Below, piece by piece: positions 4,629 to 21,379 of a stretch of 26,553 bases of DNA. The position numbers and the translations under genes are program-made. Position 1 is the stretch's first letter; each line of letters begins with the position of its first letter. Below the pieces are notes generated by a model. It made no database searches. It had not been told where the DNA came from and worked only from the letters and a program-made list of their open reading frames with translations. Origin of the DNA: a virus; the IMG/VR virus record IMGVR_UViG_3300033145_000525, positions 1 through 26,553 of that record; one strand, given 5' to 3'.

Positions 4629-5143
4629 GCTGGCCTTTCCATTTCGTCTGATGCGATTGCGACAGCGATAGCTGCCCACACGTCTTTGCTCACGCCGTAT
4701 AGCGGTCCCGGAGCCTTCTTGGTGCCCAGCGCTTTCTCACGCGTAGACCCGTAACGGTCCATGATCGATTGGCGTATGTTCTTGTCCTTGGCCTTCATCG
4801 TACCACAAAGAACCATCTTCTCGTCCTTACGATAGATGTATTCCCATGCACAAGAGTGGTGACGTGACTCGTGTTCGATCCACATCTGTGCGAATCTTCC
4901 TATCCACACGCAGGTATCGAACACGGTTTTACCTACAGCCATGCCGTAACTGGCGATCATCTCTACCGCCAGTCTGTCTATAGGGGTACCGAATCCGGTA
5001 TCGGGGTCGTCATCTCGCTCACCTAATCGCTGCAAGAGCGCGCCGTTATCTTCGATGGCGAAATTGAGTACGGCTTTGGATACTGTATCATATACAGCCC
5101 AGGCCGATTTCTCGTTACCAGGATCAAGAGCTAATATCCGCAT
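4625..5143 (-). CDS. RuvC-like Holliday junction resolvase
   Basis: This 172-residue protein has the RNase H-fold layout of RuvC resolvases, which cut four-way or branched DNA using two metal ions. The first catalytic aspartate is in LALDPGN (D7), the second acid in AVEMIASYG (E61), and the C-terminal helix has SKDVWAAIAVAI with an aspartate (D154) where RuvC has its last carboxylate; D119/D120 are further candidates. The GMAVGKTVFDT segment recalls phage-type RuvC proteins. The ATG at 5143 is preferred because AAAAGGAA precedes it at proper spacing; an upstream in-frame ATG at 5191 falls well inside the previous gene. It overlaps that gene by 20 bases. Phages use such enzymes to resolve branches before packaging. 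Confidence 0.75.
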   Translation of the reverse strand: MRILALDPGNEKSAWAVYDTVSKAVLNFAIEDNGALLQRLGERDDDPDTGFGTPIDRLAVEMIASYGMAVGKTVFDTCVWIGRFAQMWIEHESRHHSCAWEYIYRKDEKMVLCGTMKAKDKNIRQSIMDRYGSTREKALGTKKAPGPLYGVSKDVWAAIAVAIASDEMERPA

Positions 5144-6740
5144 TTCGTATTCCTTTTCGTTTAAGATGTTGAATATAGCTTTTACGCTCACGAGTAGTCA
5201 AGCATTTTCCAGATCTTTTTTTCTTGACCAGTTTATTGAACCGCGCCTCCTGATCTAGATCCTTCATTCTAACCCTGTTACCGCGTTTCCTCTCCTTGCG
5301 TAATCGATTGCTTATCAGTCGTCCGCCCCACAGGCGGGCCTCAAACGGCTCCACAGCATTCTGTATGATACCGCGGATTGCGGTCATCTCAGTCTCGTAC
5401 GTTAACCATTCCTGCCACCTAAGGGCGTCAGGTCCGTACATCGACGTAGGCTTCTTTTTAGGTATTCTACCTCGTGGACGTCTAGGTGCCCCGTCTGCCT
5501 TGGAATTAGCACGTGCGCAGTCTTCGCACGGAAATGATGGCGTGCGCCTCAGATCATCCATAAATTCCGGGCTGCTAAGCCAATCCATTACATACCGGTA
5601 ACGGTTAGGCTGCCCACACTCCTCGTTGAGTTGGTCGGCATCCTTGTACTGGCCACTGCGCTTACACAACGCCAGGTAGGCCCAGAACAAGTCAGGCGGC
5701 ATCAAATCCATTGGATGCATACCGTAGCATACAGGTACGAACTTACTGTCAGGATTGATCGCCACCAGAGGCTGGTGCGTAATCACGTCTACCGTCTCCC
5801 ACCCAGCTATAACCACCATCGTAGGCGAACACGACCACCGATCGTGCGGCATATGATCGAGGGTCCCCGTCGTAAATCCGTAGGGGTGCGGTTCAATGAA
5901 CACTCCAGCGTCAATCACTGCCAGCGTATCGTCAAACCTCAACGCCTCCCGGTTATTCCACGGGCAACGCATAAACGGTATATCGAACCACGTCGACGTT
6001 TTAAACTCAGTGTGGCATCCCTTAAAATCTGGTTCGCCTGGTCTTCCTTCATCACGTGGGTCCGTATCTATTGGAAGGTCGAATACCCAGGCAAATATCA
6101 TTTGAGCCAGCTTAGTGCGTAGGTGCGCCGCTGTCTTGGAGTCCTCGAAACCAAACTTACGCGTGTTAGTCTTGGTATCCCCACACTTGTGGGCCAGGAT
6201 GTGCGCACCCTCTAGGAACAGCCACCCGTTATCCATTTGCATAAGATCAAAGATCCACGGTGCTTTCGCCCGCAGCACAGCTTTGTTCACACCAAGCGGA
6301 CCTACCCGCTGCATGGCTGGTAAAATCGTATTACGCCAATGGTCGTTTATGTTACGCAGCATCGGGGTCTTCTTCATCGGCATGATCCGCGCTCGTCGAC
6401 TCTTGGATGCCGGTATAGCTATCGCGGAGTCCCATATCTTGAATGCGCGGGTACCGTCTTTGTATGTCCTGAACGCACTCGGCGTAAAGGGATCAGGCGC
6501 CACCAGTTCCAGTGGATCCTGCATCATCATCGTACTCCACGGATCTCTACTGAGGCTACCTACCAATGACCGGTACTGGTAAGACGCCTGACTGAACGGC
6601 GCACGTTCTATAATGCGCCGGTCAGGTGAAGGTGTTACAATGTTGCCCTGGGCCTGGGTGAGCAGTCCGTGCCTATATTTCAAGAACACATCTAGCCGCT
6701 CATCAGACCACTTGGCAACTTCAATATCGAATTTTCTCAT
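5124..6740 (-). CDS. Large protein with PD-(D/E)XK-like nuclease motif (538 aa)
   Basis: The ATG at 6740 overlaps the upstream HAD gene as ATGA with AGGAAAG in front. The visible motif is GEPDFKG followed seven residues later by TEFKTS, so D238, E245 and K247 match the D...ExK metal site of PD-(D/E)XK nucleases. A preceding helix (AAHLRTKLAQMIFAWVF) would be the usual first core helix. A CEDC pair occurs near residue 406, without an obvious second pair, and the last ~80 residues are very basic, probably for DNA binding. The N-terminal 150 residues match nothing I know. The next gene encodes a RuvC-like nuclease, so DNA processing is likely. The nuclease call rests on one motif. Confidence 0.5.
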   Translation of the reverse strand: MRKFDIEVAKWSDERLDVFLKYRHGLLTQAQGNIVTPSPDRRIIERAPFSQASYQYRSLVGSLSRDPWSTMMMQDPLELVAPDPFTPSAFRTYKDGTRAFKIWDSAIAIPASKSRRARIMPMKKTPMLRNINDHWRNTILPAMQRVGPLGVNKAVLRAKAPWIFDLMQMDNGWLFLEGAHILAHKCGDTKTNTRKFGFEDSKTAAHLRTKLAQMIFAWVFDLPIDTDPRDEGRPGEPDFKGCHTEFKTSTWFDIPFMRCPWNNREALRFDDTLAVIDAGVFIEPHPYGFTTGTLDHMPHDRWSCSPTMVVIAGWETVDVITHQPLVAINPDSKFVPVCYGMHPMDLMPPDLFWAYLALCKRSGQYKDADQLNEECGQPNRYRYVMDWLSSPEFMDDLRRTPSFPCEDCARANSKADGAPRRPRGRIPKKKPTSMYGPDALRWQEWLTYETEMTAIRGIIQNAVEPFEARLWGGRLISNRLRKERKRGNRVRMKDLDQEARFNKLVKKKRSGKCLTTRERKSYIQHLKRKGIRNADISS

Positions 6741-7099
6741 GACTTTCCTAGCCACGTTTTGAAGTTCATGATACGTTCCACGAACTCTGCATCCCATTTA
6801 CCCATGAACGTTACTCCCTTGTCGTCTACGTACACGTCTGCTGGTGGTTTGTTAGAGCATACACCGTCAACACGTATATTGTACATGTTGAGGTACTCCG
6901 TAATGGCCACCGTACCACCGCTATAACCGCAGCGTGTAGAGTGTACCAGCACCATGGAACCACGGTTACGCAGATCTTTTATGCTCTCTTTAGCGCCCTC
7001 GACGGGCTCGCCAAGTATCTTGGCGTATCCCTCATTCTCCCATCCGGGGTACAGGTTGATAACCCCATCAAAGTCCAAACAGACCACGAATACGTTCAT
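6737..7099 (-). CDS. HAD-superfamily phosphatase
   Basis: The 120-residue protein keeps all four HAD motifs in compact order: CLDFDGVI (nucleophile D9 and acid/base D11), LVHSTRC (motif II S54/T55), a lysine in CSNKPPADV (K84), and VYVDDKG (motif IV D92/D93). There is no room for a cap domain, so this is a minimal C0-type HAD enzyme resembling small bacterial and phage HAD proteins. Substrates could be nucleotides or polynucleotide 3' phosphates; sequence does not decide. The start has AGGAG about eight bases upstream. It precedes the PD-(D/E)XK-like gene with a four-base overlap. Confidence 0.8.
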   Translation of the reverse strand: MNVFVVCLDFDGVINLYPGWENEGYAKILGEPVEGAKESIKDLRNRGSMVLVHSTRCGYSGGTVAITEYLNMYNIRVDGVCSNKPPADVYVDDKGVTFMGKWDAEFVERIMNFKTWLGKS

Positions 7100-8257: not shown

Positions 8258-9730
8258 TTAATTGTCAAAGAATTCTGGTTCAAATTCCTTGTATAGTTCC
8301 TGATGTTGCACCAGCAACTGCGTGTGTTTATTCACCAGTTCTTCAAACTCATGATCGTAAACTCCGTTATGGCCTACCCCGCAAGAATGCGCCAACTCGT
8401 GAAGCACAAGTGAAGAACACTTAGATACAGGATTCTTCATCATGTCCCGTGTCACCCGCATAATGTTGAACGTAATCCCGGTCCCGTGGCTGTATATAGC
8501 GGCCGTATTCGTGCCCATCCACTGTGCGAAGTTCACGTTAATGTCCTTACCGTAGAACTGATTGCACAACATGTGTACATAGTCAGCCAGAGGTTTACGG
8601 TGTTCTGATACCTTGACTTCCTTGTAGCCGTCAGGCATCAGGTTTCCGCTTGACAGCACTTCCTTGTCTCGGGAGTACGACTCTGTTGTCGTCTTTACAC
8701 CTCCGCCGCGGAACTTGCTGTTGATCGACGACCCGAATGTTCGGGCTGAAACGATAGTGGCACCCTGTCGAGCTGCCTCCTGGTTGGCGTCTGCGTCGAG
8801 GGTCTGTATGACTGCGTTTTCGCCGAACTGCCGCTTAAACAAGCTTGCAGCGGTCTCCGCGTCGACACGTTCGTCTTCCAGGGCCATATGGACATGGGCA
8901 TCGCCCAGATCTCCCGGCTCCAGTAACTCGTCCAGGGCCACTACCATTTCTGCATAAATGTCTTGTAAGAACGACTGTGGTACCAGTGTGCGGTCATGTG
9001 ACAACGGCACCTTCTGCTGCACATTGGCATCGAACCGTCCGTCAATAGCGCACACGGGCAGCCCTAGCTCGTACAGGTACGCTGACTCGTGGCGCTTTGG
9101 ATAGAACCATACGTTGGTCATCCGTTGCGTCTTGGTCATTACCTGGTTACCATGAGCGTCTGTCTTCAGAAACTCCGTGGCCAGTTTAGTTTTGACGCTT
9201 TTCATAGGAGCCGCGTACTTCAGTTCCTCATCGTTAGCTCGAAAGTCAATACCCTTAGGTACATAAATCCTGCGCAGGAACGAGAGCACCTCTTTGCGTT
9301 CAGCTTCCGTCCAACGCGGGAAGTCTATAGACACTACGCTACCCATGTCGCGCTTCTTACGCGTGGCTTTACGCCCGGTCTTGTCGAATACGACTGTACC
9401 TTTTGTGGTCGAGATGATACCGCTCTTGGCTCTAGCCAATACGATCTTCTCACCCAGGTTAAACTTACCTCTTTTGGTAGGATCACCACGCTTATCCGTG
9501 CTCTTGAACAGGGTATAGGCGTCTCTGAGATCCTTGAATCCATCGGGGTTGTCGTCTTCAACCAGCAAAACTGTGCTGCGCGTCGACGGGGAATCCGCTA
9601 ACACCACCTTACACATCTTTGCATCTGTATCGAAACTGTTCTGTACCAACTCCGCCACCATACGTTCGGGCGGGAAGTTAGCGAACATTTCTTTGAATCC
9701 TTCTTTATCTACATCAAACCAATTGCCCAT
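8258..9730 (-). CDS. GHKL ATPase fused to HExxH zinc metalloprotease
   Basis: The N-terminal domain has the Bergerat ATP-binding signs of the GHKL group (Hsp90, gyrase B, MutL, histidine kinases): ELVQNSFD (E27, N31, D34) as N-box, VEDDNPDG (57-64) near the G1 position, and a glycine-rich GKFNLGEKIVLARA (88-101) as lid/G2. The middle part, with VPLSHDRTLVP, may be a transducer-like domain. The C-terminal domain contains LHELAHSCGVGH, an intact HExxHxxGxxH zinc site (H444, E445, H448, H454), followed by DHEFEELV. GGAG lies before the ATG at 9730 and it overlaps the UDG-like gene by 17 bases. No signal peptide, so it should act in the cytoplasm. Substrate unknown. Confidence 0.8.
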   Translation of the reverse strand: MGNWFDVDKEGFKEMFANFPPERMVAELVQNSFDTDAKMCKVVLADSPSTRSTVLLVEDDNPDGFKDLRDAYTLFKSTDKRGDPTKRGKFNLGEKIVLARAKSGIISTTKGTVVFDKTGRKATRKKRDMGSVVSIDFPRWTEAERKEVLSFLRRIYVPKGIDFRANDEELKYAAPMKSVKTKLATEFLKTDAHGNQVMTKTQRMTNVWFYPKRHESAYLYELGLPVCAIDGRFDANVQQKVPLSHDRTLVPQSFLQDIYAEMVVALDELLEPGDLGDAHVHMALEDERVDAETAASLFKRQFGENAVIQTLDADANQEAARQGATIVSARTFGSSINSKFRGGGVKTTTESYSRDKEVLSSGNLMPDGYKEVKVSEHRKPLADYVHMLCNQFYGKDINVNFAQWMGTNTAAIYSHGTGITFNIMRVTRDMMKNPVSKCSSLVLHELAHSCGVGHNGVYDHEFEELVNKHTQLLVQHQELYKEFEPEFFDN

Positions 9731-10076
9731 GTTTCTTCTCCACTGCTTTTGTCACTGCTTCTTTAATGTGTTGGTTGTACCGCTCCTTCTTACGGATACG
9801 GCCTCTGGCTGCTGGGTGTACGATAGGAATGTGCGACACACCAGCTTTGGTGAGCGCGTCCTGTACGATGCGGCCCATGCCGAATACGGCTCCGGGGTAC
9901 TGACGTATAAGCGCCTGTGACCTTGTATTGAACCAATTTTCGAACTTGCACTTCTGTGGGTCAACCCCACAGGCTGTTAGCGCATCGAATAGTTGTTTAC
10001 CTGCGAGGCGTCCATCCTCCCAGCTCCAGCCCTTACGTAATGCCGTAGGGCTTTTCTTTTCACCTACAAATAGCAT
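9714..10076 (-). CDS. Compact uracil-DNA glycosylase-like protein (120 aa)
   Basis: The frame is open to 10259, but the upstream part lies inside the previous gene, so the ATG at 10076 is chosen. The product begins MLFVGEKKSP with GRLAGKQLFDAL, and near the C-terminus has IVHPAARGRIR (H87). These resemble the GE...G...L and HPaaR elements of the UDG superfamily, in a shorter frame than family 4 enzymes (about 200 residues) and without their Fe-S cysteines. No ribosome binding site is visible; the nine bases before the ATG follow directly on a C(UUCG)G hairpin. It may remove uracil or a modified base, or only bind one. Confidence 0.6.
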   Translation of the reverse strand: MLFVGEKKSPTALRKGWSWEDGRLAGKQLFDALTACGVDPQKCKFENWFNTRSQALIRQYPGAVFGMGRIVQDALTKAGVSHIPIVHPAARGRIRKKERYNQHIKEAVTKAVEKKHGQLV

Positions 10077-10085
10077 AGTGATAAT

Positions 10086-10107
10086 GGGGGCGCCCGAAGG
10101 CGCCCCC
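10086..10107 (-). other. 9-bp GC hairpin with UUCG tetraloop
   Basis: On the minus strand the arms GGGGGCGCC and GGCGCCCCC close a TTCG loop through a C-G pair, the exceptionally stable C(UUCG)G RNA tetraloop. It lies between the stop at 10115 and the ATG at 10076. No T-run follows in either direction, so it is not a standard intrinsic terminator. Similar CUUCGG hairpins occur between phage T4 genes. Possible roles are shielding the upstream mRNA end or limiting initiation of the UDG-like gene. Confidence 0.8.
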
Positions 10108-10114
10108 TCAATCT

Positions 10115-11548
10115 TTACTGCTGTTGCTGCTCTGCAACTTGCTGTGCTATCGGAACTTGTGCTAGGCTTGGGGCGTCTACGCCGGCAGCCTGCAGCGTCA
10201 ATCCTGCACCTATTGCGGGACTCGGTGGGAAGATCATAGCTCCAACAGACCCCGGACAAAACGTCACGGGCATGTTATAGATCTTATTGTCCCCGCCTAT
10301 GATGGTCTGGCGTATGTCTTCCGACAGGCGCTCCTCGCCAACGTAGCAGTTACATTGTTCAGCCCCTACCTTAGGGTGGATACGCTTGAAGTCAGAGAAC
10401 AAGCGGGACAGCACAAACGACGACACGTGTGTAGATTTGCCGTTCAGTGTATTGTCCTTAAGCCACGACTTCAATGCCCATAGTCCTACGGGCCTTCCAT
10501 GTGCGGAAGCCTGAGCTGACGGTACATCACCGACGTACTGCCATTCGGACTTAGCGAATACGCTACCCTTCCACTGGTGCTTGCGCTTTCCCTTCTCGGG
10601 CATTACGTTATGCATCTCAGCCATCTTAGCTGTCACATGGTCGATACTGATAGGGCCATTAGCTGCCAGTTCCCGGGCTATGCGACGTGCGATCTGCACG
10701 AAGCCTTGCTTCTTGTCGCCGGCCAGGTCTATCTTGAACTGTCCCTCGGCTTTACCCTTTGCTGGGTCCATCTCAGCGTCTATCTGTGCTTTGCGTATAG
10801 CCTGCACCTGTGTGTCCAACGACGCGCCATTCTCGGACAGCAGAGACGCCACAAAGGCATCCTTAGCCTGCTGTAATGGTATAGGCACGGTCATATCTGG
10901 ATCACGTATGCAGTCGACCCATAGCTTTGCCGTTAACAGGTCAAAGCTGGTTGCTTCGCGCACATAGGCAATAGCCTTGATGCTGTCTTCGCCCTCGCCG
11001 AATAGTACCCTGGCTTTCGCGTCAATCTCCTCCAACAATTGTTGCGGAGTAAAGGGCTGCTCATCCCGAGGCAGCGGCGTGGCAGGCGTCTCCACTTTCA
11101 GCGTCTCCACTGCCGTAGTTTCACCGCGTCGTGCTGCCTGTGTAGGTCGGTTCTTCCATACTCCCGACCTAATTTGTGCAGCGCGAACACGTTTGTACTC
11201 TTCCCGCAGATCAGCACGTGAACGTTCAGGGGTCAGCTTACGCATCTCCTTAACGTAATCATCGCGCAAGCCAAGCTTGAACGCCAGTGCGTATTTATCT
11301 TCATCTGTGGGTGCTTTCGAAGACTTCTTCATATGAGGCTTAAGCAGCTCCACCTTAGCGACAATTTCATCTACATCTGAAAGAGGCTTCCCCGTGGTCG
11401 ACTCTTCTGTTTTTGGCGCTTCCACTGTGGATGCTTTTGCTGTTTTCGGGCCGGCGACAGTAGATTCACTCTTCTGTCCTGCCTCGTTATATCCGTTCTG
11501 TTTCAATATTTCATTGATCCCACTGATCATGTTTGATAGTTCTTCCAT
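10115..11548 (-). CDS. Unknown 477-aa protein with possible winged-helix segment
   Basis: The ATG at 11548 follows AAGGA at good spacing; a GTG three bases earlier is an alternative. Residues ~20-60 are Thr/Lys/Glu-rich and disordered. Residues ~60-215 are charged and helical. Around residue 285 a helix FVQIARRIARELAANG leads into PISIDHVTAKM and then a KHQWKGSVFA segment, which could be a winged helix-turn-helix. The C-terminus is rich in Ala and Pro and ends in four glutamines. The size and long transcript position suggest a DNA-metabolism or virion-associated protein, but I cannot name the family. Confidence 0.7.
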   Translation of the reverse strand: MEELSNMISGINEILKQNGYNEAGQKSESTVAGPKTAKASTVEAPKTEESTTGKPLSDVDEIVAKVELLKPHMKKSSKAPTDEDKYALAFKLGLRDDYVKEMRKLTPERSRADLREEYKRVRAAQIRSGVWKNRPTQAARRGETTAVETLKVETPATPLPRDEQPFTPQQLLEEIDAKARVLFGEGEDSIKAIAYVREATSFDLLTAKLWVDCIRDPDMTVPIPLQQAKDAFVASLLSENGASLDTQVQAIRKAQIDAEMDPAKGKAEGQFKIDLAGDKKQGFVQIARRIARELAANGPISIDHVTAKMAEMHNVMPEKGKRKHQWKGSVFAKSEWQYVGDVPSAQASAHGRPVGLWALKSWLKDNTLNGKSTHVSSFVLSRLFSDFKRIHPKVGAEQCNCYVGEERLSEDIRQTIIGGDNKIYNMPVTFCPGSVGAMIFPPSPAIGAGLTLQAAGVDAPSLAQVPIAQQVAEQQQQ

Positions 11549-11573
11549 CACTGTTTTCCTTCACTGTTGTTGT

Positions 11574-11978
11574 TTATTTGTACTTACTGCCTGGCACTAT
11601 AATCTTTTTCGGCATCATATGTGTCTGCCATTCATCTATCTCGATGATCACAGACTGCCGTAAACCCGGCTGGCATATGTTACACGCTGAAGAGTGCAAC
11701 ACACTTCTAGGCCGGATATAATATCCGTTGTCCAGTATTTTAGGTATCAATCGGCAGATGGTGACCTTGCAATGAAAGCAAATCACCCTCGCCGCATCCT
11801 TATAGGTCGTCCAGCACTCCGGACAGATCTGATCAGGCTCACCCACATACTGCCGCATCAGGAACGCCTTCGTGCACAATAGGCACGGCACTATCGTTCC
11901 CGGCAACGGTTTCCCGCTCGTGTCCTGGAATAGTAGTGGGTCGTTCCGTAACTCTGGCAAGTCTCGCCAATCTGTCAT
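11574..11978 (-). CDS. Zinc-binding protein with four CxxC pairs (134 aa)
   Basis: Four CxxC pairs occur at residues 32-35 (CLLC), 52-55 (CPEC), 67-70 (CFHC) and 99-102 (CNIC), which probably make two four-cysteine zinc sites. The N-terminal 30 residues and a beta-rich C-terminus flank them. The first pair lies in the part that overlaps the glycosylase-like gene by 140 bases, and AGGAGG sits nine bases before the ATG inside that gene, so the early start is well supported. Cys4 modules of this type bind DNA, RNA or proteins; no specific role can be assigned. Confidence 0.75.
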   Translation of the reverse strand: MTDWRDLPELRNDPLLFQDTSGKPLPGTIVPCLLCTKAFLMRQYVGEPDQICPECWTTYKDAARVICFHCKVTICRLIPKILDNGYYIRPRSVLHSSACNICQPGLRQSVIIEIDEWQTHMMPKKIIVPGSKYK

Positions 11979-12645
11979 TGTAGTCTTCCTCCTCGAATAC
12001 GAACGACCAATATCTACTGTCGGCTTGGCCTTGTTTGTTATCCCAGTATGTCCATCGCGCTATCACGGGCGGCACGCGCACCTTTGCGCATTGTATAGCC
12101 CAGTGTGATTCTATCGCGTCCATGTCCGATTTACGGATACCGCGCTCGTTAATATGTTTGGCGGTGTAACCATACAACTGCAGTATATGAGTGTCAACAC
12201 AAATAACCTGTGTACGTAGCGGGTAGATCAGCTCTACCATGAACGCTGACTTAGCCTGTCCGATACCCTTGGCTTTGTTCTGCATACGTAACCTGTATTG
12301 GCTCCAGCTCTCGAACTTAGTCTTTAAGAACCAGTCCGGATGCTGCCAGTAATACTCGGTAAACTCGTGAATCCACTCTGCTCGATTGTTATGCAAACCC
12401 GCACGCACGTCAATGATCCTTCGTTTCAACTCATCGAAGTCATGTATCCATGCGAGGTCCCGCAACGCATAATACAGCTTGCAGTTCATCCTCCACGTTG
12501 AATGTACGCTGGCATACGCAAACAGCCACCTCCGAAAACGCTCCTCCGCTGTCCGCGGCGTTATACGTTTGAGGTAACGTGTATAACGACATAGCTGTAC
12601 GTCATTAACGGAGGCAATGTGTTTAGAGGCATCACTTGTCTTCAT
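11839..12645 (-). CDS. HhH-GPD DNA glycosylase-like protein
   Basis: Residues 126-135 (KGIGQAKSAF) form a helix-hairpin-helix, and 16 residues later CVDTHILQLYG carries the conserved aspartate (D151) that defines the HhH-GPD base-excision family (endonuclease III, MutY). Where endonuclease III has its catalytic lysine (GVGRK), this protein has GIGQA, with a lysine one residue later, so it may be a monofunctional glycosylase. The Fe-S cysteine cluster is absent. A following RWTYWDNKQGQADSRYW block may be specific to phage relatives. The ATG at 12645 is uncertain; an in-frame ATG at 12663 also lacks a good ribosome binding site. The last ~45 residues overlap the zinc-protein gene out of frame. 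Confidence 0.65.
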   Translation of the reverse strand: MKTSDASKHIASVNDVQLCRYTRYLKRITPRTAEERFRRWLFAYASVHSTWRMNCKLYYALRDLAWIHDFDELKRRIIDVRAGLHNNRAEWIHEFTEYYWQHPDWFLKTKFESWSQYRLRMQNKAKGIGQAKSAFMVELIYPLRTQVICVDTHILQLYGYTAKHINERGIRKSDMDAIESHWAIQCAKVRVPPVIARWTYWDNKQGQADSRYWSFVFEEEDYNDRLARLARVTERPTTIPGHERETVAGNDSAVPIVHEGVPDAAVCG

Positions 12646-13210
12646 GAAGCGCACTGAGCACATTAAACATTATATTGGTGTTAGTCTCTAACTGTTCCAG
12701 ACTACCATCGTTACAGATGCCCGAGTCCCACCCTGGGTAGGCCAACAACGCAGTTTCACTTGCATGCTGCATCTGTTCATCTGTGGCGTTAGGTGGCTTC
12801 CAACCAGGTCGCGTTATGCGTACCGTGTAGCCGCCCCATCCTGTTATGGCCTCAGCTTCATTCCAGAACCTTACATCAGGAATTACGATACGTGTACGCT
12901 GTGTCTGTTGAATTTTACGCTCTAGTGCCTTCACCCATATGTCCCGGAGGAAGTTATTGCGCATCGCCTCGGTCCCGAAACGCTGCAGGATCGCCCTGGG
13001 GGTTTCCCCCCAGAACGGATCCACAGTCATCTTGAAATCGAGGTCTTCCAGCTGCGCACGATCCCATCCGAAGATGACGCATGCAGCGTCTTTCAACGCA
13101 TCAGCAAAACGGACTCGCTGGAAGCCGTGATGCAGGCATAGCATGTCCGCAACGGTGTCCTTCCCAGAACCCATCTGAAAGCCTAAACCGATTATCAATT
13201 TGTCTTTCAT
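12632..13210 (-). CDS. Deoxynucleoside monophosphate kinase
   Basis: The protein starts with a P-loop in the form GLGFQMGSGKDTVADML (residues 8-24, K17), where the aspartate after GK is typical of phage dNMP kinases and dephospho-CoA kinase-like enzymes. FADALKD near residue 36 and RAILQRFGTEAMR near 74-86 match the nucleotide-binding and lid parts of this family, and VIPDVRFWNEAEAI (109-122) resembles its conserved D-R region. At 192 residues it has a normal length. It would phosphorylate dNMPs, including unusual ones in phages with modified bases, to feed replication. Only a weak AGG precedes the ATG, six bases after the upstream stop. Confidence 0.85.
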   Translation of the reverse strand: MKDKLIIGLGFQMGSGKDTVADMLCLHHGFQRVRFADALKDAACVIFGWDRAQLEDLDFKMTVDPFWGETPRAILQRFGTEAMRNNFLRDIWVKALERKIQQTQRTRIVIPDVRFWNEAEAITGWGGYTVRITRPGWKPPNATDEQMQHASETALLAYPGWDSGICNDGSLEQLETNTNIMFNVLSALHEDK

Positions 13211-17143: not shown

Positions 17144-18556
17144 TTACTGGGTTGGCGGTGTTCCGCCCATCGTGCGCAGTTGATCCAGAAACTTGTCCTG
17201 GTCAAATGGCGCTACTGCATCTCCCGGTGCTGCCGGACCCGGCACTACCGGTGGCACTCCATTAGCTGGAGCTGCTGCCACTGGGGCCGCTTCCACTGGG
17301 GCCGCTGCTGCCACTGGGGCCGCTGCCGCTACAGGTGCTGCTGCCGCTACAGGTGCTGCTGCCGCCACTGGGGCCGCTGCCGCTACAGGTGCTGCTGCCG
17401 CTACAGGTGCTGCTGCCGCTACAGGTGCTGCTGCCGCTAGAGGCGCTGCTGCTGCTACAGGAGCTGCCACGGGGGCTGCTGCTGCTGCAACGTTAGCTGC
17501 TACGCCTGCTACTACCTCTGACGCTGCCACGGGCGCTGCTGCCACTGGTGCTGCCGCTGCGGGTGCCGCTGCTACAGGACTTCCACCGAAACCGCCACCA
17601 CCTGTTGCTACCGTCGGCGAGGCCGCGGGTGCTGCAGGGGGATCTGGAATCTGGAACTGCGGGAACGCCATCTTAAGCAAAGCGTGCTCGTGATAGCCCT
17701 GAGGCGATCGCATGCTCAGCAAACCGATTAGCGTATTGATAACATCCTGCTCCTGAGGAATATTCAGGAATGACGCAGGCTCAGTCATGTTGTACCGCTC
17801 TTTCAGGAGGTCCTGTCCTACTGGACGTTTAACTACCTGATTTTGGTTATCCAATGCTAGCGATATCACGTACTTCGAGTACTCGCCCTGGTTGTCCTGC
17901 TTCTGACATATCAGCACTGGACCTTCGGCCGGACTTGTCATATCCCCAACTGCGAATTGCAGCAGATAGTTCTGGCTTACGATCTCTGCCGGCAAGTTAT
18001 TCCGCTGGAATACCAGGCCGTTCTTTGTGCCGATCAGTGAGTTGCATGAGCTTGACGAGAATACGCCAATCTGCACACCCTTCGCTGGCTGGTTTGCATC
18101 CCAGATGTTGGCAATGAAGTGGTTAAGCGGTTTGCTGAACGCAGCACGCTCCCTGCTCTTGCCGTCTCCTGTGTCTTCCATCAGGTAACCCCAATCGCCA
18201 GAATTCTGGCTGATCGTCAGGCAAAGATGCTCCAACGGATCGAATATCTCGTCCCCCGGCTTTGCGAATGTACGCAGTGACAGGATGTCCTGTCGCGTAC
18301 CAAACTTTCCACCGCCGTGTCCGACGAACCGTGAAATGTATAATACCATTCCAAAGTCTGTTAGATGCCCGTCAGGTGACATGAATGTCACGCATGACGT
18401 AGCTGGGTCAGGGTTACTCGGATCGAATGCTGGAAGCATTCTGAACGCGATCGGGTCCTTGCCCGTCATGTTGCGGAAACGCACCCCATCTTTGAAGATG
18501 AGGTTCTTACGTCCCGAACCTGTTTTCATTGTCTGTACTTGATTGTCTAATCCCAT
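17144..18556 (-). CDS. Probable DNA-binding protein (SSB-like) with Ala/Pro repeat tail
   Basis: The 470-residue protein has two parts. Residues 1-305 are folded and beta-rich, with FRMLPAFDPSN (38-48), a glycine-rich VGHGGGKFG (78-86) and aromatic residues spread as in nucleic-acid-binding proteins. Residues 306-450 are Ala/Pro/Val-rich with a repeated AAAAPV hexapeptide, a probable flexible linker, then a short DQDKFLDQLRTMGG tail that might bind partners. Position between polymerase and recombinase, a strong AAGGAG site and a private terminator fit a single-stranded DNA-binding protein needed in bulk. I see no diagnostic OB-fold motif, so this is context-based. No zinc motif is present. 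Confidence 0.5.
   Translation of the reverse strand: MGLDNQVQTMKTGSGRKNLIFKDGVRFRNMTGKDPIAFRMLPAFDPSNPDPATSCVTFMSPDGHLTDFGMVLYISRFVGHGGGKFGTRQDILSLRTFAKPGDEIFDPLEHLCLTISQNSGDWGYLMEDTGDGKSRERAAFSKPLNHFIANIWDANQPAKGVQIGVFSSSSCNSLIGTKNGLVFQRNNLPAEIVSQNYLLQFAVGDMTSPAEGPVLICQKQDNQGEYSKYVISLALDNQNQVVKRPVGQDLLKERYNMTEPASFLNIPQEQDVINTLIGLLSMRSPQGYHEHALLKMAFPQFQIPDPPAAPAASPTVATGGGGFGGSPVAAAPAAAAPVAAAPVAASEVVAGVAANVAAAAAPVAAPVAAAAPLAAAAPVAAAAPVAAAAPVAAAAPVAAAAPVAAAAPVAAAAPVAAAAPVEAAPVAAAPANGVPPVVPGPAAPGDAVAPFDQDKFLDQLRTMGGTPPTQ
17267..17578. repeat. In-frame 18-bp tandem repeats coding AAAAPV
   Basis: The plus-strand unit GCTGCTGCCGCTACAGGT and close variants recur with 18-bp period; the most regular part is 17297-17455, with degenerate flanks on both sides. 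In the coding frame each unit gives six residues (AAAAPV, with rare L or E replacements). Third-position changes between units without amino-acid change suggest selection on the protein as well as slippage or unequal exchange. Confidence 0.9.
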
Positions 18557-18571: not shown

Positions 18572-21379
18572 TTATACTTTCTCACCCCATCGCGTCATAA
18601 CGTCGATGTCAATACCCAAACGAAGTGGGTCCCTGTCAGGAATCGGGATATCAATTTTACCCATAGTTTCCTGGAACATCACTTTTGTTTCCTCTATTTC
18701 GTTTTCGGGCACTTCGACCATCACCGCATCGTGAATCTGATTCACTATACGGAAATGTAGGTTATGCTCTTCCCTGTATCTCTTGATTAGGTACATGGCA
18801 ACCATGCACGTATCAGCTACTGTACTTTGAATCGGGAAGTTCTGCGCCTGGCGTTGCATGCCAGCCACACCTTCTCGACTATTACCAACAGTGAAACGTC
18901 GGCATCTACCCCACGGATTTGTCAACAAACCCGTCTTAGTTACAGCGTCGGCACAACTACACATGTAGCCCCACGCATCTACGAATGTTTGTTCTTTCCA
19001 CACCTCCATCATTGTATCGATCTCGGCCTGTAATATGTCCAACGATTGAGTTGAACCGGTCTCGCCCTTTACCTGTCGCGCAATGTCCATAGACCCACGC
19101 CCGTAGGGGATTCCGAAGTTCAAGTTCTTCGCCGACACACGAATCGTATTCTTAAAATCAGCTCGTGACATTCTTTCCCCTTGCAGGTCCAGGTACATCA
19201 GTTGCTTCTGTAACTTCTCGAACGCAGCCATATCGTCTTTGGCCAACGTCAGTAAGTAATCTTCAGGCATCGGGTTACCGTCAGGCCCCAATACAGATAG
19301 ATGGAATGAACTTATAGCCGTCATGTCATGCATGTCTTTACCCGGCGTGGTAAGTGTACCCCACATAACCTCATCCCCGGACAGTGCCGCAAGTACGAAT
19401 AACTCAGCCTGCACAAAGTCGGCCTCCATCAAGAAGTGCCCTGGTTTCGGTATAACAATCGTACGGATCTGATCCGGACGTTCTTTACCAAAAGTTTCGA
19501 ATATCTTCCAGATATACCCCTCAGCGCGCTTCGGCCAGTTCTGGCAATTTGGTTTGCTGGTTTTGAATCTACCCGTTTCCGCTAACTGCGAAAAGCGTGG
19601 ATGTATTCGTCCGTCAACCCATATCTTTGCTATGATTCCACCACCCGAGGTAGCCTCGTCAAAGTCCGGGGAAGGATCCCTTAGCCACGTCTTCCGTGCC
19701 TGGTCAACCCGCCTGATGTCCGCCATCACCTTCACGAATGGATGTTTTTCCTGTAGGATTTCCAACGTATTCATGTCGGTGCACGGACTATACAGTGCCT
19801 GCGCTTCACGCGGCTGGTTCTGCATATGATCGGTCCACGCCTTACCCTTAGTCGTCTTTATAGGTGTAAGACCCAAGTTATCGAAAAGCAAACTAGCCAC
19901 CTGTGGCTGTGAACGAAAGTTGAAATCAACAACACCCTCGTTATGCGCCATAAGCTTTGCTCGGCTCGCTAACTGGGTCAGGACCTCAGTGTAATCCTTC
20001 GTTAGATGTGCTAACCGTTCCTTGTCGATCAACATACCAGTACGCTCAATCTCATAGAGCGTATGCTGCGTATCCATATCTGTTTCCCACAGACTTGGGT
20101 ACTTACCACGTGGCTCCCTAAACTGCTGTAACTCCGGCGCCTGCTTAATCGCAATACGCCTGGGAGCATCTACGTCCCATGCACTATACGGAAGCAGCAA
20201 GTCCCGGGGGACCGGTCCGTATCCGTGTTTACATATCTTCTTATGCTCCTTGACCCACTCCTTAACCGGCAACTCGTAGTGCCCGATATTCGTGTACTTG
20301 ATCGTTAGATCCTCAAGGGCGAACGGACCTGTCTCGCAGATGTCATGCTCAGCCAGCATGGTGTCATACACCACACGCGACCTTACGTCGATATCGTAGC
20401 TCAGAAGCCACTCACCGTCAGCGATCACGTTCTGTCCGCCTATGTCGACCCGCTCGTCTTCCAGTATTAGCTTTATCTCGGCCCAGGCTGCGTCATGGTC
20501 GTCCATGACATTACCCCTACAGTCGTGCGTCCAACTCTCTCCCTCGGGCACTACGCCTTCGTCAAAGAATTCAATCACGACTGCCTGACCAAGTTCAAAC
20601 CCCAGCTGTACAGTCCTGATATAGCGGTCTGGTGACATCCATGTCGCACCATCCCACTCACAGTCAATCATCAAGAACGGATTGGGGTACGTATCAAACA
20701 GATGTTGCTTGAACGCCCGGATCTGCGCTACACTCTGGAGCACCATGAAATTCATGGTATCCCGCTCAACTTCTCTGCCCAACTGGCGGTCAGTCAACAA
20801 CTTCCAGTCCCTGTCGTAGTCTACCTGGCGTTCTGGGTTGCGCAGTATGAACGCTGGATTGTAGGTAGTGAATACCTCGGTATCCGGTAACGTCGGATGC
20901 TTTACGAACGAACCCCTGTAATCAGACAGGTTATGCCCCCGTCCCATTACCGCGGTCAGCGACTTGGCGCCTAGGCAAACAATTACCTTGGGGGCGCACC
21001 GCTTCATTTCCTCTTCCAGACACGGACGACAGACCTTCAAATCGCTGGCGTTAACGGCCCGCTTTGCCGGCGGACAGAACTTTACAGCGTTGGTCATGTA
21101 TATCGCGTAGTCTTCAGCCCTAGCCGCTACATGCTTGCAGCTGGCCACACCTTCCTTAAGGTACTGGAACCCGGCCTTGTCCATGGTCGGGAACAGGATT
21201 TCCAGCCCGGCCGGCCCAGTAAACAGGTTGCCAGTAGTTACTTCTTCGTTACCGGGCCGCTCCCCTACGATCATGTACTCAGCGGGTAACTGTCCGATGC
21301 CCTTGATCCATTTCAGGTCATCGATTACCTCGGTATGCTCTAGCCACTGCGGGCCGTCTGGTCTTTTCTCTTTCGCCAT
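18572..21379 (-). CDS. Family A DNA polymerase with N-terminal UDG-like domain and 3'-5' exonuclease
   Basis: Three domains are readable in 935 residues. Residues 30-200 resemble family-4 uracil-DNA glycosylase: IVGERPGNEE (37-46), GNLFTGPAG (50-58), YMTNAVKFCPP (94-104) and TTYNPAFILR (171-180), where asparagine 174 replaces the usual histidine of HPA. Residues 230-420 are a DEDDy exonuclease: IDCEWD (D239, E241), NVIADGEWL (D321) and YSAWD (Y398, D402), all present. The PolA domain has motif A ADFVQAEL (D654, E659), motif B with R747, K751, F755, Y759, and motif C QIHDAV (D884) with alanine instead of glutamate after the aspartate. AGGAGG precedes the ATG. This is the replicative polymerase. 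Confidence 0.93.
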   Translation of the reverse strand: MAKEKRPDGPQWLEHTEVIDDLKWIKGIGQLPAEYMIVGERPGNEEVTTGNLFTGPAGLEILFPTMDKAGFQYLKEGVASCKHVAARAEDYAIYMTNAVKFCPPAKRAVNASDLKVCRPCLEEEMKRCAPKVIVCLGAKSLTAVMGRGHNLSDYRGSFVKHPTLPDTEVFTTYNPAFILRNPERQVDYDRDWKLLTDRQLGREVERDTMNFMVLQSVAQIRAFKQHLFDTYPNPFLMIDCEWDGATWMSPDRYIRTVQLGFELGQAVVIEFFDEGVVPEGESWTHDCRGNVMDDHDAAWAEIKLILEDERVDIGGQNVIADGEWLLSYDIDVRSRVVYDTMLAEHDICETGPFALEDLTIKYTNIGHYELPVKEWVKEHKKICKHGYGPVPRDLLLPYSAWDVDAPRRIAIKQAPELQQFREPRGKYPSLWETDMDTQHTLYEIERTGMLIDKERLAHLTKDYTEVLTQLASRAKLMAHNEGVVDFNFRSQPQVASLLFDNLGLTPIKTTKGKAWTDHMQNQPREAQALYSPCTDMNTLEILQEKHPFVKVMADIRRVDQARKTWLRDPSPDFDEATSGGGIIAKIWVDGRIHPRFSQLAETGRFKTSKPNCQNWPKRAEGYIWKIFETFGKERPDQIRTIVIPKPGHFLMEADFVQAELFVLAALSGDEVMWGTLTTPGKDMHDMTAISSFHLSVLGPDGNPMPEDYLLTLAKDDMAAFEKLQKQLMYLDLQGERMSRADFKNTIRVSAKNLNFGIPYGRGSMDIARQVKGETGSTQSLDILQAEIDTMMEVWKEQTFVDAWGYMCSCADAVTKTGLLTNPWGRCRRFTVGNSREGVAGMQRQAQNFPIQSTVADTCMVAMYLIKRYREEHNLHFRIVNQIHDAVMVEVPENEIEETKVMFQETMGKIDIPIPDRDPLRLGIDIDVMTRWGEKV

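Follow-up and report, generated by a model that had tools for sequence, protein, structure and literature searches.

A GHKL ATPase joined to a predicted zincin protease domain in a single chain: a large and apparently undescribed protein family of phages, plasmids and some bacterial genomes

According to the excerpted part of a jumbo-phage survey, the rIIA orthologues of phages are discussed as GHKL counter-defence proteins with variable C-termini, and rIIA and SprT-like zincins occur as separate proteins, with no fusion of the two in those passages (PMC7824862). In the type I-D Shedu system, VcSduA is a single chain in which an N-terminal GHKL domain has been proposed to control the C-terminal effector (PMC12137116). 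Among the zinc proteases, Wss1 and Spartan have been recognized as DNA-protein crosslink proteases (PMC4559962, PMC5127644), and Wss1/WLM, SprT and the minigluzincins have been described as structurally similar (PMC4559962). MORC, MutL, Hsp90 and TopoVI-B are built from a Bergerat ATPase followed by a transducer or middle domain, an arrangement shared by the protein described here (P0001). To our knowledge, none of these four carries a protease domain, and proteases of the Wss1/SprT/YgjP type either stand alone or are joined to SUMO/ubiquitin/p97 or zinc-finger modules, never to a GHKL ATPase, while the characterised ATP-dependent proteases known to us use ring-forming AAA+ motors.

P0001 is encoded in a stretch of 26,553 nucleotides (the window), a 26.5-kb IMG/VR virus record of which all main ORFs lie on the minus strand. 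A preliminary description of this DNA had placed the gene at 8258-9730; the coordinates are right, and the strand, absent there, is minus (9730 to 8258). Several stops interrupt the plus-strand frame read across the same interval, and full-length homologues share the start motif WF(D/E)VDK. The sequence motifs quoted in that description were all located in the translation (ELVQNSFD at E27-D34, VEDDNPDG at V57-G64, LGEKIVL at L92-L98 and HELAHSCGVGH at H444-H454), and the gene overlap with a UDG-like ORF reported there is real, amounting to 17 nt (9714-9730). The start codon of this upstream ORF is uncertain; its longest form begins with TTG at 10259 and has a long overlap with the ORF at 10115-11551. 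Other neighbours encode a DnaB-like helicase, a primase, a PolA with an N-terminal UDG domain, a RecA/UvsX-like protein and a dNMP kinase, an HNH endonuclease lies downstream, and a possible HhH-GPD glycosylase is also present. These neighbours place the gene in a replication module. The features are compiled in Table 1.

Table 1. Positions of the gene for P0001, of the modules and motifs of its product, of the overlapping ORF and of second-clade examples (window numbering unless a locus is named)
Feature	Position	Strand	Basis or remark
CDS of GHKL-zincin protein P0001, 490 aa	8258..9730	-	ATG start at 9730, stop ends at 8258; single open frame
GHKL (Bergerat) ATPase domain, residues 1-160	9251..9730	-	Pfam HATPase_c_3, AlphaFold2, Foldseek
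N box ELVQNSFD, residues 27-34	9629..9652	-	E27 99%, N31 100%, D34 100% (100 members)
G1 box DDNPDG, residues 59-64	9539..9556	-	D59 and G64 100% (100 members)
ATP-lid/G2 region RGKFNLGEK, residues 87-95	9446..9472	-	R87, G88, K95 100%; G93, E94 99%
Transducer (S5-like) module, residues 161-265	8936..9250	-	AlphaFold2 strand/helix pattern; Foldseek alignments
Small helical region, residues 266-345	8696..8935	-	AlphaFold2 pLDDT about 90-97; acidic
Flexible linker, residues 346-363	8642..8695	-	only stretch with block pLDDT 63-66; weak part of the full-length model at about residues 350-370
Predicted zincin domain, residues 364-490	8261..8641	-	separate AlphaFold2 model, Foldseek, hhalign; Wss1/YgjP/SprT-like minigluzincin fold
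Zinc motif HELAHSCGVGH, residues 444-454	8369..8401	-	H444 96%, E445 97%, H448 98%, H454 97%; G451 11%
Upstream UDG-like ORF	9714..10259	-	Pfam UDG E=0.0025, below cut-off
Clade-2 examples	L060:6073-7389, L083:2825-4132, L069:5492-6871, L029:5017-6357, L082:1586-2947; L237-L307		phage GHKL(-zincin) proteins

The N-terminal half bears out the Hsp90/MutL-type ATP site that had been read from the motifs. Of the hallmarks of the GHKL superfamily, the N box and the G1 box are seen in the family alignment, a Bergerat fold followed by a transducer domain was found by AlphaFold2 and Foldseek, and the Pfam model HATPase_c_3 matched P0001 at E=1.1e-6, above its cut-off. In the fold search suggested as a test of the N-terminus, Foldseek against the PDB placed Hsp90/TRAP1 first (1e-12), followed by MORC3/4 (3e-9) and TopoVI-B (3e-8), all with a probability of 1.00, and the alignments extend through the middle domains of Hsp90, MORC and TopoVI-B; against viral models, a 399-aa viral protein of 31% identity was retrieved, with rIIA among the weaker matches. 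The GHKL residues are near-invariant in a 100-sequence family alignment, from which all residue counts given here were taken. The G1 box of the family is a D-D-x-P-x-G variant of the D-x-G-type motif, and residues 4-11 of the GHKL domain form a conserved N-terminal stretch, WFDVDKEG. In the QQK...R motif of the transducer (238-240, R247), Q239 and R247 are present in 100% of the members, and position 240 is K in 97% and R in 3%. From general GHKL knowledge, we take E27 to be the general base, N31 a Mg ligand and D59 the adenine contact, and the QQK...R motif is presumably the counterpart of the GyrB QTK loop. P0001 differs from MORC, MutL, Hsp90 and TopoVI-B in that it has no MutL endonuclease, no Hsp90 C-terminal dimerisation domain and no CW domain. 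Membership in the Hsp90 family, with its N-M-C architecture, was rejected, as the C-terminal module is a zincin and no HSP90/HtpG profile matched.

The C-terminal domain is predicted to be a zincin of the Wss1/YgjP/SprT-like type and not a metzincin. The pattern HExxHxxGxxH is expected by chance in only about 5e-5 matches in a protein of this composition, and the zinc motif is evidently under selection, because H444, E445, H448 and H454 are kept in 96-98% of 100 members. Even the homologue LR745208, in which BLAST and MAFFT alignments put a gap inside the motif, keeps all three histidines in its own HEFGHNECPDH. Modelled alone (AlphaFold2, residues 364-490), the domain reached a pLDDT of 95.0, and the fold search that had been proposed for this region returned zincin folds: the best PDB match was the selecase of M. 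jannaschii (E 9e-3), and yeast Wss1 was matched at E 0.015 (probability 1.00, TM 0.59, rmsd 3.1), these likenesses to known structures being remote (best E 9e-3, TM 0.48-0.59). In profile comparisons by hhalign, YgjP scored 96.6% and bacterial WLM-like proteins 95.4%, both against reference sets that were gathered by HExxHx5H motif windows and thus favour agreement at the motif, and SprT scored 91.3%, astacin 70.5% (a reference set of four sequences) and a GHKL negative control 0.2%. Pfam matches of single members to WLM (E 1.5e-4), YgjP (1.6e-4) and SprT (5.8e-3) all fell below the family cut-offs. Wss1/WLM, SprT/Spartan, YgjP and the minigluzincins (selecase, proabylysin) share HExxHx5H and the order of their elements with this domain, and the minigluzincin pattern fits further in the HExxH helix, the third histidine (H454, 97%), a Y or F at 458 (94% combined) and a helix at 456-475. 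In the AlphaFold2 models this helix comes directly after H454 and the domain ends at 490; since the helix starts right after the third histidine, as in the minigluzincins, there is no Met-turn and no room for one.

The identity as a metzincin was rejected on these grounds: the window protein matches the metzincin pattern HExxHxxGxxH, but its glycine (G451) is Gly in 11% of the family, a Met-turn segment is missing, and the astacin profile scored 70.5% as opposed to 91-97% for the other three. A distant kinship to the astacins may exist nonetheless, because a PDB sequence-profile search of the zincin found the astacin myroilysin at E 0.0045. Hence the label "metzincin-type" in the preliminary description has to be given up; its comparison with Spartan/SprT was apt, and its central claim, an HExxH...H zincin in the same chain as a GHKL site, is upheld by conservation and by the fold and profile matches.

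The model of the full-length protein (computed by AlphaFold2 from the family alignment; mean pLDDT 93.4, pTM 0.79) gives the predicted order as GHKL ATPase and transducer (1 to about 265), small helical region, flexible linker and independently folding zincin. The net charge of the helical region is -7 in the window protein, with a family mean of -3.8. The GHKL residues and HExxH...H are both kept in 95 of the 100 aligned members, and because the two residue sets are retained together in so diverse a group, both activities are predicted to be selected jointly. The remaining 5 members have no full zinc motif and intact GHKL residues, by which the protease appears to be dispensable in some lineages. 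Natural protease-less variants, with the zinc motif truncated or mutated and the GHKL residues intact, are encoded at L030:8001-9329 and on contigs L007, L048 and L119.

When set beside T4 rIIA and rIIA-like proteins, P0001 shares the N-terminal GHKL domain, with a profile match of 94-95% over about 150 columns, and the homology to its family ends after the ATPase domain. Three rIIA-like proteins of 787-863 aa were tested; they lack HExxH and were not matched by the zincin profile (0.2%). In their phages rIIA is followed by rIIB, whereas no rIIB-like partner was seen for the GHKL-zincin family. Membership in the rIIA family was therefore rejected, given the roughly 150 columns aligned, the missing HExxH of the rIIA-like proteins and the lack of a common partner gene. 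VcSduA is likened to P0001 by architecture: the effector of the former is a PD-(D/E)xK nuclease, and the C-terminus of the latter has a predicted zincin protease fold.

The preliminary description had called the pairing of the two domains inside a phage replication operon unfamiliar. It is apparently undescribed, yet by no means peculiar to the window phage, and belongs to a widespread family. A single-sequence scan of viral contigs with P0001 yielded no relatives, but alignment-based scans did find them, mostly full-length, on at least 140 IMG/VR contigs (80 of 140 contigs kept) and on 32 cellular-genome contigs, among others from Alphaproteobacteria, Burkholderiales, Planctomycetota, Verrucomicrobiota, Chloroflexota, Actinomycetota, Patescibacteria and archaeal MAGs. 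The nearest relative (58% identity) resides on a 169-kb phage contig (L003); tblastn added a full-length homologue of 28% identity in a 485-kb phage as well as homologues on plasmids of Methylibium, Bosea, Rhodovastum and Picosynechococcus. The search for the same fusion, which had been recommended, thus found it in phages, plasmids and some cellular genomes, and in all of these settings the GHKL-zincin architecture is kept as one conserved unit. PHROGs had no match for P0001; the relatives mostly hit unannotated phage families there, through their GHKL part. Cells rarely carry a full-length copy: beyond the seed genomes, one was found in 1 of 293 and 1 of 397 genomes of two phylum samples. 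Viral and cellular sequences are intermixed in a 103-member tree, in which supported branches force 10 to 11 label changes. Some of the "cellular" contigs may be prophages or contaminating phage contigs; in either case, the behaviour of the gene is that of mobile cargo. The papers searched, which were open-licence only, contained no account of a GHKL-metalloprotease fusion, so that this absence is not proof. The family is large and apparently undescribed.

In five loci a second GHKL protein, which also ends in HExxH, is encoded near the first-family gene. This second clade aligned with the first family by hhalign over its full length (97.6%, 393 columns), HExxH on HExxH; unlike in the first family, its HExxH precedes an unusual DG...H, and an E...W is conserved after it. 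Both clades are present on seven contigs and lie within roughly 5 kb of each other in five. A C-terminal HExxH was found in 40 of the 71 clade-2 relatives from IMG/VR, and many others are about 355 aa long and end before the zincin; zincin-less relatives also exist in such well-known phages as Pseudomonas phage Ab18 (363 aa) and the Vequintavirinae (398 aa). Since 40 of 71 members have HExxH and the shorter ones end before it, the zincin is regarded as a module coupled to the GHKL part, and the clade-2 pattern indicates that the GHKL-zincin pairing recurs among large-genome phages and that the zincin can be absent.

A conserved neighbour was sought among 102 non-redundant loci, and none was present in more than 5; when 106 neighbours from bacterial loci were surveyed with Pfam, no family was found more than 3 times, and L003 and the window have no other gene in common within 8 kb. 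Because no conserved neighbour exists, the overlap with the UDG-like ORF is not informative, and the hint of a repair context that had been drawn from it did not hold up. On two Picosynechococcus plasmids (L018:6386-11663 and L019:4391-10768), the GHKL-zincin gene lies directly between genes for a DisA-type diadenylate cyclase and a CHAT-domain protein on the same strand; this putative operon is possibly a nucleotide-signalled protease system. On the Rhodovastum plasmid, a HerA-SIR2 antiphage pair is located about 3-6 kb from the gene. These contexts, which are isolated cases, suggest conflict functions in those elements.

A mode of action can be proposed on the basis of general GHKL biology. 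ATP binding would order the lid together with the WFxVDKxGL segment conserved at the N-terminus, two subunits would dimerise at the N-terminus, and the clamp would close around a bound client. H444, H448 and H454 would hold the zinc and E445 would activate water, and the tethered zincin would cut the client held in the clamp, so that proteolysis would depend on nucleotide state instead of AAA+ threading; hydrolysis, aided by E27 and the QK loop of the transducer, would reopen the clamp. To judge from the distribution, the target is most likely a protein of the host or of a rival element (takeover, defence or counter-defence) rather than a component of the virion, because the gene occurs patchily, is exchanged between phages and plasmids and lacks a constant neighbour. 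We consider this picture, namely a mobile ATP-gated dimeric clamp whose tethered zincin cuts a held client and which is used against host or rival proteins, to be about evenly poised between right and wrong. That such a GHKL-clamp-gated protease in one chain represents a mechanistically new class among the ATP-dependent proteases, spread through phages and plasmids as a weapon in host conflict, is put forward more tentatively, with somewhat less than an even chance of being correct. If true, the coupling of a GHKL clamp to a zinc protease would be a design different from that of the AAA+ proteases. The size of the family (at least 140 viral contigs and a second clade) and its compactness (about 490 residues, confident models) make the idea directly testable, and it would suggest a function that could be sought in phage GHKL proteins without an assigned role, including rIIA-like proteins with varying C-termini.

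Several other explanations were weighed against this gated clamp. The protein could clear DNA, a MutL/MORC-like clamp closing on the phage DNA under replication and the zincin digesting proteins crosslinked or tightly bound to it. This is attractive because of the likeness to Wss1 and MORC: by fold as well as by profile, the nearest proteases to the zincin are Wss1, YgjP and SprT, MORC and TopoVI-B are among the best GHKL matches, and the window gene sits amid genes for PolA with its UDG domain, RecA/UvsX-like, DnaB, primase and HhH-GPD-like proteins. Those replication and repair neighbours are not conserved in the relatives, however; no DNA-binding domain is recognisable, and a basic bias sought by charge was not found, the mean net charge of every module being near neutral or acidic across the family, so that we rate a DNA-clearing role as unlikely. 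A defence or abortive-infection effector, which would sense a trigger (another phage or a nucleotide signal) and damage host proteins through the zincin while the resident element is protected, is recommended by the diadenylate cyclase and CHAT flanks, by the nearby HerA-SIR2 pair and by the GHKL-effector fusions known in Shedu. But the majority of members reside on phage contigs and lack a constant partner gene, and no known defence model matched, PADLOC giving weak matches to the GHKL part of TmtA only (E of at least 8e-4); we regard it as distinctly improbable.

It is very doubtful that the protein is an Hsp90-like folding and maturation factor, in which the GHKL part would act as chaperone for a phage protein, with the zincin making a single maturation cut in a virion protein or polyprotein. 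Hsp90/TRAP1 are the top structural matches, and the excerpted part of the jumbo-phage survey proposes virion processing for phage zincins and for a MoxR-vWA/metallopeptidase pair (PMC7824862); yet the window gene is in the replication module and not beside head or tail genes, copies occur on plasmids and in cell genomes, and the distribution is patchy and not tied to one virion type. Finally, a zinc site that is structural or binds peptides without cleavage, leaving the protein only a GHKL switch, would accommodate the loss of HExxH in L007, L030, L048 and L119 and the many clade-2 relatives without a zincin domain, but E445, which is required for catalysis alone, is 97% conserved along with the three histidines, and we give this reading hardly any credence.

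Some additional proteins deserve mention. A third protein type adjoins the GHKL-zincin gene at L055:10316-11743, L057:10318-11757 and L064:9759-11204; it combines the GHKL-like glycine motif GQFGSGNKHAIN with a degenerate EECxHW motif in the C-terminal part, which is perhaps a decayed or altered zincin. In the replication module of the window, the large minus-strand ORFs at 5124-6797, 17144-18556 and 10115-11551 (557, 470 and 478 aa) had no Pfam match at E<=0.01; in PHROGs, the former two had no match at E<=0.01 and the last none at E<=0.1. The DNA polymerase A at 18572-21379 on the minus strand carries a fused UDG-superfamily domain in its N-terminal part (Pfam UDG 1.1e-19, residues 29-191), and the minus-strand ORF at 11839-12663 gave a weak HhH-GPD match; together with the UDG-like ORF at 9714-10259, three glycosylase-like domains are thus present in one replication module.
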